A stretch of DNA of 64,000 bases from Candidatus Terraquivivens yellowstonensis (GTDB lineage Archaea; Thermoproteota; Nitrososphaeria_A; Caldarchaeales; Wolframiiraptoraceae): assembly GCA_023539445.1 (NCBI GenBank), contig JAKCEW010000005.1, forward strand, positions 1 through 64,000, read 5' to 3'. The first letter of the stretch is position 1. Each line of letters starts with the position of its first letter. The notes under the pieces are model-generated. The model was not told the origin of the DNA, did no database searches, and saw nothing but the letters and a program-made list of their open reading frames with translations. Below are positions 7,167 through 52,580 of the stretch, piece by piece. The position numbers and the translations under genes were made by a program.

Positions 7167-7649
7167 ATGAGAGAGAAGAAAGGTATAAGCTATGTTGTTA
7201 CAGTGGCTATCGTAACAGCTGTTACGATAACTTTGGGATTTTTTCTTTGGGGAGTTGTAAGTGGATGGACCGGGGCTTCTATGATGGACATCGTGTCAGA
7301 AACAAATAAGGGAATAGCCCAGCAAAGAAGCATACTCGTGGTTGAGTTTATTGATTGGGAAAGCGGAACCGTTTGGGTATCAAATCCAGGAAAAGTGGAT
7401 CTTGTAATACTTTCATGTACGATTTATCCAAAATCCAACCCTCAACCACAGGGAAACTATCGAGAGATAGCTAGAGTTAGTGCTTCTATGGACCGTGTTT
7501 ATCCGCTGAAAATAGGATCGGATTGTCAGCTTATTACAGGCCAGAAACCGTATGTTATCGATATACGTGCTATAGCCTCAACCATATACAATCCAAATAA
7601 CCCGTTGGAGAATGCTCAATGGATGATTATGGTGAGGCAAATTGTATAG
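7167..7649 (+). CDS. Archaeal type IV pilin-like protein
   Basis: N-terminus MREKKGISYVVTVAIVTAVTITLGFFLWGVV: basic leader followed by hydrophobic helix. Confidence 0.65.
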   Translation: MREKKGISYVVTVAIVTAVTITLGFFLWGVVSGWTGASMMDIVSETNKGIAQQRSILVVEFIDWESGTVWVSNPGKVDLVILSCTIYPKSNPQPQGNYREIARVSASMDRVYPLKIGSDCQLITGQKPYVIDIRAIASTIYNPNNPLENAQWMIMVRQIV

Positions 7650-14929: not shown

Positions 14930-15880
14930 TAGCTCCACATCAGGTCTTGCTAAGAGCACCACCCTGCTATCTGAATCCTTGGTAACGATTACGTAACCCA
15001 AAGACCTATTAAGCTCTTCAGCGAAATCGGAAACTTCCTCCATGCTTGGCATAGCCTCCCTCGGCAGCCTCTTTTGAGACTCGCCTACGTGCATGTACGC
15101 CTTACACTCGACAAACTCGGGCATGGCAAGTTTTATTAAACTCGCATACTTCTCGGCATCTTTCATTGTGTAATTTTTCACCAACGTTAACCTCACAACT
15201 TTCCTACAGTCAAGCGAACTCATAAGCTCCAGACTTTTTATCGTTCTCTGCCAACTGTCCGTTATGAGTGGCCTCGTAACTTGTTTGTGTGTCTCTTCGT
15301 CAGGCCCGTATAAGCTTATGTAAAGATTGGTTGGCAGGACCTCGAGCTCCTTTAACACCTCGGGCATTGTGCCATTGGTCACGAGGAACGCCGTCATGCC
15401 CCTTAGCTTTGCCTCCTTTATCAGGTCGGAAAGGTAGGGATAAAGCGTCGGCTCGCCATCTAACGATATTGCTACATGCTTCGGCTCCATAGCCTCGTTA
15501 AACCTTTGAGCGGTAACCTTAGGATTGCCCTTGAAGCCCGAGAGGAGTTCTCGTTGCGCAGCTATGCAACCATCAAGTATCGCCTTTGGCTCGTCCCAAT
15601 CCCCGCTATACGGGCTAACCCTGTTTATGCTGTGGAAGCGCCAACAGAATATGCACATCATATTACAATATTGAAGCGTCGGCGTCATCTGAACGCATCT
15701 GTGACTTCTTATGCCGTACCACCTCTTATAGCAGAACTTGCCGCCCCTTAGCGCGGTTTTCGTCCAGTGGCAAACTTTCACGGCGGAATGCCTGCCAACT
15801 ATCCTATACCCTGCTTTCTTGAACTTCTCTAACGCTTTAACCTCATCCCTAGATAGTCTATGAGCCGGGATTGTCGACAT
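14909..15880 (-). CDS. taw1: 4-demethylwyosine synthase (TYW1/Taw1)
   Basis: CNMMCIFCWRFHSI radical SAM motif; AISLDGEPTLYPYL; GRHSAVKVCHWTK N-terminus. Confidence 0.88.
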   Translation of the reverse strand: MSTIPAHRLSRDEVKALEKFKKAGYRIVGRHSAVKVCHWTKTALRGGKFCYKRWYGIRSHRCVQMTPTLQYCNMMCIFCWRFHSINRVSPYSGDWDEPKAILDGCIAAQRELLSGFKGNPKVTAQRFNEAMEPKHVAISLDGEPTLYPYLSDLIKEAKLRGMTAFLVTNGTMPEVLKELEVLPTNLYISLYGPDEETHKQVTRPLITDSWQRTIKSLELMSSLDCRKVVRLTLVKNYTMKDAEKYASLIKLAMPEFVECKAYMHVGESQKRLPREAMPSMEEVSDFAEELNRSLGYVIVTKDSDSRVVLLARPDVELSNIASL

Positions 15881-50914: not shown

Positions 50915-52037
50915 TTATGGTTTTTCCATATAGACGATGCTTTCTTTTGCCTCGCCGATCTTTATAACTCTTTTCGTCGTTGCAACCCTTCTGTTTACTA
51001 TGCGTATCTTTTCAACGTTAAAGCCTATGCTCTCAGCCAGTCTTGCGATCAGTATATCGGATTCAACGACCCTGTCAGGAAAGACCCCGCCTGCGACTAC
51101 TAGGGCTACCTTGCCTTTGGGCTTCAGAACTCTGAACATCTCCGAGAGAGCCTTTTTCATGTCTGAGAAGTAGGCTTTTGCGATTATTGGGAGGTCCATT
51201 TCGGGAAACGGGTCTTCAACGTTTTTTGGGTTCAGGCCCAAGTAAGAACGAACCGCATCTACCTTGACGCCGGGAAGGAAGAGCTCGTATTCTATCCTAT
51301 AGACTGTTGTGTACTCTATCTTGTTCAGATATGGTGGCGATGTTATTATTGCGTCGAACGTATCGTCGGGTAGCTGGAGCATCCTCGCATCGCCGAGCAT
51401 TATCCTAACCTCACAATCCTCGAGCTTTATCGACCTAACATCTTTGATCATCCTCTTAACAATCCTCTTGAAGAATTTCCTAAATGGCGGTGTCGGCTTC
51501 TTCACTATCTTTATTACACCACCGTTTTTGTAAGCGTAAGAGGCTTTCATGGCGCTCCTCATAAGAGCTAGCATGAAAAAGCCCTTGATGTTTTCCTCCA
51601 TCTCGGCGATCCTGTCCCTGAAGAACACAACATCCTCAAGGACCGGTCTGCTGAAGGCCCTCTTTACGAGCGGGTCAAGACCTTCCAGCGAAGGCTTGGA
51701 GTAAGGAATCGAAAATAATGAATCCGCTTCCTTCTCCAGCAAATCTGCATCGTATCTGGTAGTCTTGGTTTGCGATACAAACACGGCCAATGGTGACGAA
51801 TCAACACCACAGGAGTTTACACCTACCTCCATACAGGCAAGCGCCGTCGTACCGGAGCCGAGAAACGGGTCAAGCACCCAACTCCCTTTACCTAAGTTGA
51901 ACTCCTTAAGCATCAGCCAAACGAAATCTCTCGAGAATCCTTCCTTAAAGAAAAAACCAGTTATGCACAGGTATGTTCTTATTCGGGACGAAGGTCACAA
52001 GCTTTCCGAGGTCGTACCTCTCCTCGATCACGAACAT
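50915..52037 (-). CDS. DNA methylase (N4/N6)-like protein, frame-disrupted; two frames joined by +1 shift at 51945-51950
   Basis: Downstream frame DPFLGSGTTALA and TSPPYLNKIEYT; upstream frame MFVIEERYDLGKLVTFVPNKNIPVHNWFFL* joins to KEGFSRDFVWLMLKEFNLG. Confidence 0.7.
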
Positions 52038-52040
52038 ATG

Positions 52041-52580
52041 CTACTTCCCCCTAAGCTTAGTGGCCTCTGCTATTATTGTCTTACAGAAGCTTGGGAGATC
52101 GTCAGGAACTCTGGACGTTATTATGTTTCCGTCCACAACTACTGGAGCGTCTATGAATGTAGCGCCGGCATTTATCACATCATCCTTAATCCCGCTGACA
52201 CAGGTTACCTTCTTCCCATTCAGTAACTTAGCTGATATTAGAAGCTGTGGCCCATGGCATATGGCACCTATTATCGCTCCTTTCTGCCCATGTTTCCTGA
52301 CAAACTCCACAACCCTGCTATCCCTCCTCAGCCTATCAGGAGACCAACCGCCGGGAATTATGACTATGTCAAAGTCCATGCTAAGGGCTTCATCTATCGT
52401 TAGGTCTGGAACTATCGACAGGCCATGCTTACCTCTGTACACATCCCTTGTCGGCGCCACAACCTTCACATCAGCACCTTCCTCTATGAACCTGAGCAAC
52501 GGGTAGTGGAGCTCCAAGTCCTCATAATCAGGGCCAGCAAGTATTGCAACCCTTTTACCTGAAAGGCTCAAGCCGAGCAC
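52041..52580 (-). CDS. DJ-1/PfpI-family protein
   Basis: DYEDLELHYPLLRF; IIGAICHGPQLLISA. Confidence 0.92.
   Translation of the reverse strand: MLGLSLSGKRVAILAGPDYEDLELHYPLLRFIEEGADVKVVAPTRDVYRGKHGLSIVPDLTIDEALSMDFDIVIIPGGWSPDRLRRDSRVVEFVRKHGQKGAIIGAICHGPQLLISAKLLNGKKVTCVSGIKDDVINAGATFIDAPVVVDGNIITSRVPDDLPSFCKTIIAEATKLRGK

Follow-up and report, generated by a model that had tools for sequence, protein, structure and literature searches.

A probable programmed +1 ribosomal frameshift at a conserved UUU_UUU_C site in an archaeal DNA-type methyltransferase gene

In yeast ABP140/TRM140, the methyltransferase domain is made only after a +1 shift. The gene is a listed +1 frameshift (PMC5009743). 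For influenza PA-X, a +1 slip on UUU_C, at UCC_UUU_CGU, was shown by mass spectrometry; the authors favoured re-pairing from UUU to UUC together with a sensitive E-site codon, and predicted a wider UUU_C class (PMC3498833). The members of that class cited in the same paper are viruses of eukaryotes. In archaea, the only −1 programmed ribosomal frameshift demonstrated in a cellular gene is that of Saccharolobus fucA1, on A_AAA_AAT, according to a 2021 review in which +1 shifting in Archaea is mentioned solely as an apparent case in the haloarchaeal virus HSTV-2 (PMC8211752). The methylase gene described here resembles fucA1 as a candidate programmed frameshift in an archaeal cellular gene, but fucA1 shifts by −1. 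It resembles ABP140/TRM140 in having its methyltransferase domain beyond a +1 shift, but ABP140/TRM140 uses another shift site and encodes a tRNA methylase of a eukaryote. No earlier report on this methylase gene was found in the literature searched, most of it available without subscription, and a +1 shift in a conserved cellular archaeal gene is new as far as those papers go.

The window analysed is a stretch of 64,000 nucleotides from Candidatus Terraquivivens yellowstonensis (contig JAKCEW010000005.1, positions 1 to 64,000). On its minus strand, the frame that opens at ATG 52037 reads MFVIEERYDLGKLVTFVPNKNIPVHNWFFL and then meets TAA at 51947-51945. If one base is skipped, the reading continues as KEGFSRDFVWLMLKEF...DPFLGSGTT and stays open as far as the stop at 50915, giving a joined product of 373 aa. 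An open joined reading of this length is far beyond chance. The features of the locus are as follows.

52041 to 52580, minus strand: upstream DJ-1/PfpI gene with stop TAG, ending 3 nt before the methylase ATG.
51945 to 52037, minus strand: frame-0 open reading frame with the 30 N-terminal methylase codons and the stop TAA; dN/dS 0.077 within the genus, and gap-free alignment to the N-terminus of single-frame orthologues.
51950 to 51956, minus strand: candidate shift site UUU_UUU_C, where the P-site UUU would re-pair with UUC; invariant in 23 of 23 shifted orthologues, with zero silent changes on the tree.
51945 to 51950, minus strand: CTT TAA, the zero-frame codon and in-frame stop that follow the slip codon, a probable stimulator; stop present in 22 of 23.
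50915 to 51949, minus strand: +1 frame with the rest of the methylase to its stop, including KEGFS, DPFLGSGTT (SAM motif I) and TSPPYLNKIEY (catalytic motif IV); PF01555 match of 54.8 bits.

Given the 3-nt gap, translation of the DJ-1/PfpI gene and the methylase is probably coupled. The original prediction had described the frame break from ATG 52037 and a joined methylase N-terminus leading into motif I; both are confirmed here, and the same break was found in 22 other genomes. The favoured reading of the gene, drawn from comparative sequence data, is that a single solitary DNA-type N4/N6 methyltransferase of 373 aa is probably produced through a programmed +1 ribosomal frameshift at codon 29.

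Evidence that the two frames encode one protein came from homology. A single match to the PADLOC MTase_II profile (Type II methyltransferase) spans the junction, covering residues 12-262 with an E value of 3.9e-50, and the PF01555 score compares with a cutoff of 26.7 bits. The SAM motif DPFxGxGTT and the catalytic TSPPY are both present, as in Type II-like solitary N4/N6 DNA methyltransferases, with invariant residues across 40 aligned sequences. A structure modelled for an intact single-frame orthologue, L023 (mean pLDDT 88.6), has a methyltransferase fold; the closest solved structures are those of archaeal Trm11 tRNA methylases, at a low score (TMq 0.35). The product is a putative solitary DNA-type N4/N6 methyltransferase, with a Type II methyltransferase as nearest profile and Trm11 as nearest fold.

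Orthologues were sought in all 44 genomes of the order and then in 398 genomes of the phylum. The break, TGG TTT TTT C, is present in 23 of 51 orthologues, and all 23 genes are apparently functional. Within the window's family they comprise six in its own genus (g1, every genome), seven in g2, one in g3 and two in g4; family f4 contributes two in g8, two in g10 and one in g11; and two genomes of the distant family f10 carry the break outside the order. The shifted state therefore spans seven genera of the order plus f10, and proteins as little as 47% identical have identical or nearly identical sites. A match to the site in a further genome, G256, was dismissed as chance. The other 28 orthologues have a single intact frame encoding W-F-(Y/F/H)-(F/Y)-K, with codons TGG TTY (TAY/TTC/CAC) (TTY/TAY) AAR; exactly three residues separate W from K, and the motif does not vary in length. 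One intact orthologue (L030, in G035) has T5 (TGG TTT TTC TTT AAG), one T short of the shifted form, and is nested among shifted relatives.

This distribution bears on whether the break could be an assembly or base-calling error or the mark of a decaying pseudogene. A homopolymer run in a metagenome-assembled genome (MAG) invites that suspicion, as does one degraded duplicate elsewhere, but the same site recurs in 23 genomes from several projects, and purifying selection on either side of it is strong. Separately sequenced Terraquivivens MAGs, the nearest records at 83-89% protein identity, share the break, and one shifted carrier (G024) consists of one contig, 1,680,938 bases long. Such an origin is scarcely credible for the window and is already refuted for the clade. 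The original prediction had proposed that relatives with one T fewer would expose an artefact, a test that fails for the window's genus and most of the family; the intact-frame relatives it had also asked about do exist, in genus g5, in families f2 and f3 and in others, but not in the window's genus, where six of six are shifted. The degraded duplicate (L100, G017:C13:1-2600) is a second methylase copy in G017 that keeps the T6-C site and has several stops further on, either a decaying duplicate or a binning mixture.

Further support for a joined product came from the pattern of substitution. Before the break, dN/dS is 0.077 in g1 and 0.057 in g2. After it, the ten codons encoding KEGFSRDFVW show no amino-acid change in g1 (pN 0.000 at pS 0.775). 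These comparisons indicate that purifying selection is strong on both sides of the break and, together with the alignments, that two overlapping frames are under selection at the protein level. In 20 of the 23 genes, the stretch of +1 frame that runs from the last stop up to the site lacks ATG, GTG and TTG, and the first start codon past the site comes 13-50 codons on. In most copies, then, translation of KEGFS would depend on a change of frame at the site, by the ribosomes or in the mRNA. One could instead suppose that no joined protein exists, the 30-aa frame coding for a leader or a coupling peptide, with the methylase beginning at a downstream internal ATG, such as the one found 13-14 codons past the site in several genera. 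This is very improbable, because KEGFSRDF, which lies ahead of that ATG, is conserved despite many silent changes, three carriers (G024, G027 and G031) have no such ATG, and the supposed leader is homologous to the N-terminus of the single-frame orthologues.

The bases of the site are themselves constrained beyond what the amino acids require. For the 23 shifted genes, silent changes at 55 conserved two-fold codons were counted on the gene tree. None has occurred in the site's first two Phe codons, the only codons among the 55 of which this is true; the third has undergone one, and the other 52 columns have a minimum of one and an average of 4.5. Elsewhere in the shifted genes Phe is encoded by TTT 177 times and by TTC 404 times (30% TTT), yet the first site codon is TTT in all 23. 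TTT_TTT_C is invariant: the run is always T6, never T7, and the next base is always C. This silent-site constancy suggests that something other than the encoded protein preserves U6-C. Beyond the C, where the third codon specifies Phe it is TTT in 20 of 21 genes, and in the two genes where it specifies Tyr it is TAT; UAA thereby stands in frame 0 in 22 of the 23 genes. CTT occurs in 21 of 23, and the combination of CTT and stop in the window and 19 others.

The same pattern speaks to the proposal that RNA polymerase drops one U within T6, leaving part of the mRNA in frame for ribosomes that behave normally. A T6 run is present, and loss of one T restores the frame. The run is exactly T6, however, and thus short; slippage-prone runs are selected against at about nine in many bacterial genomes (PMC1088944), and coding sequence of the window's own genome does not avoid T6 (18 observed, 21.2 expected). 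Moreover, the run is followed by C in 23 of 23, although T would be silent there and would lengthen it, and transcriptional slippage does not account for the TTT/UAA constraint past the C. We therefore regard it as improbable. Since the same split is kept in 23 genomes from several genera, the ribosome very probably shifts +1 on purpose at this site.

Under the frameshifting model, the P-site tRNA-Phe on UUU would re-pair +1 onto UUC, and decoding would resume at UUU-AAG (Phe-Lys) to give ...HNW-F-F-F-KEGFS... Ribosomes that do not slip would read one Leu codon, stop at UAA and release a 30-residue peptide. Slippage is probably made more frequent by the slow stop, whose retention in 22 of 23 genes suggests that it probably contributes to the shift. 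A Phe slip from UUU to UUC yields W-F-F-(F/Y)-K, in agreement with the intact family. To judge from the alignment, the direction is +1 and not −2: a −2 shift would add one residue to a W-K motif in which length does not vary.

The original prediction had likened the site to bacterial prfB (RF2), with the slip on CUU and UAA in the A site. Its conserved +1 event is strongly supported; the slip on CUU, one codon later than proposed here, is probably not the main step. In that scheme, tRNA-Leu on CUU would move to UUU with UAA waiting in the A site. The prevalence of CTT and the stop is consistent with it, particularly since nothing in the protein fixes the wobble base that creates the stop (TTT in 20 of 21 Phe cases, compared with 30% elsewhere); tRNA-Leu(GAG) is present; and a pilin gene with the same bases and no stop stays unshifted. 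Natural variants argue otherwise. Two carriers, L102 and L109, read TTT TTT CTA TAA (TTTTTTCTATAA, a natural variant without CUU), and their CUA would re-pair on UAU with two mismatches. A third, L099 (G031, a single MAG), reads TTT TTT CTT CAA (TTTTTTCTTCAAG) and meets its next stop a few codons on; it is the sole carrier without an adjoining stop (TTTTTTCTTCAA, a natural variant without the stop). A CUU slip would also insert Leu at a position occupied by Phe or Tyr in every one of the 28 intact orthologues, and would leave the upstream TTT_TTT_C invariance unexplained. These variants indicate that CUU is dispensable and that the stop, though probably helpful, is not strictly needed, so that the slip likely occurs one codon upstream of CUU-UAA; a slip on CUU itself is unlikely.

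The pilin/archaellin-like gene (window 7167-7649, plus strand) contains in-frame GGA TTT TTT CTT TGG at 7239 with no frame break, a natural non-shifting counterpart, which implies that the heptamer alone is unable to divert most ribosomes. Other T6-CTNTAR sites of the genome are antisense to genes or upstream of one, and none lies at a gene break. TTTTTTC is scarce in coding sequence of the same genome (4 observed against 10.8 expected over about 152 kb sampled, a deficit reached in about 1 in 100 shuffles), which would fit avoidance of UUUUUU-C.

Searches for stimulators and causes other than the stop gave negative results. Downstream RNA structure was not detected at the site (mean z 0.02 in shifted genes and 0.39 in intact ones), nor was a consistent Shine-Dalgarno element upstream of it. 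A rare Leu codon was rejected as the cause, since CTT outnumbers every other Leu codon in the window; the A-site CUU is not rare, but a stop comes next in 22 of 23. Loss of tRNA-Phe wyosine modification was likewise rejected, because 43 of the order's 44 genomes have the Taw1 family (PF08608), whether or not their methylase gene is shifted. In the window, a wyosine-pathway gene (Taw1/TYW1, PF08608) lies at 14945-15127 on the minus strand. Among the 39 tRNA matches of the window's own genome (G000), no tRNA-Phe was recognised; many of its tRNA genes (L054, L059-L064, L116-L120) carry introns.

Set against the known systems, the site resembles PA-X in a P-site UUU followed by C, at which we infer that tRNA-Phe re-pairs with UUC, and in a conserved E-site codon. 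UUU_C is present in 23 of 23 sequences at what would be the P site, and the E-site codon is restricted to UUU in 23 of 23 with no silent change. Unlike PA-X, this is a cellular archaeal gene, the E site holds UUU, the A site holds CUU or CUA and then UAA, and the shifted product is the whole enzyme. As in prfB, with its CUU_UGA, the shift falls early in the gene, CUU and a stop adjoin it, and the +1 frame encodes most of the protein. Unlike prfB, the gene encodes a methylase and not a release factor, the stop is UAA, there is no Shine-Dalgarno stimulator just upstream, and CUU and the stop are not universal among carriers (CUA in two, no stop in one).

The history of the shift is complex. On the gene tree, the shifted state requires 5-6 changes, at least 4 of them across well-supported branches, and a single clade of shifted genes is rejected (p 0.0003) with the columns around the site left out. 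The shift either arose several times or is old and has been lost several times. In most lineages an origin needs two changes, Tyr replaced by Phe and one T gained; this requirement, and the Tyr codon of their own that the f10 genes retain past the site, would favour at least two origins.

The shift likely keeps methylase levels low or adjustable. A low level of a solitary methylase is plausible as its purpose, with termination speed or the state of tRNA-Phe as possible modulators. More tentatively, the UUU_C +1 shift may be an ability common to archaeal ribosomes that several lineages adopted separately in the same methylase gene for dosage control, perhaps sensing termination speed or tRNA-Phe state. 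The natural variants, intact orthologues and same-genome non-shifting counterpart bring both mechanism and purpose within reach of direct tests. Routine gene callers would truncate the methylase in these genomes. If the favoured reading is true, the +1 site belongs to a cellular gene of Archaea and has been kept across several genera and families, and it would tie archaeal ribosomes to the UUU_C class of viruses of eukaryotes.
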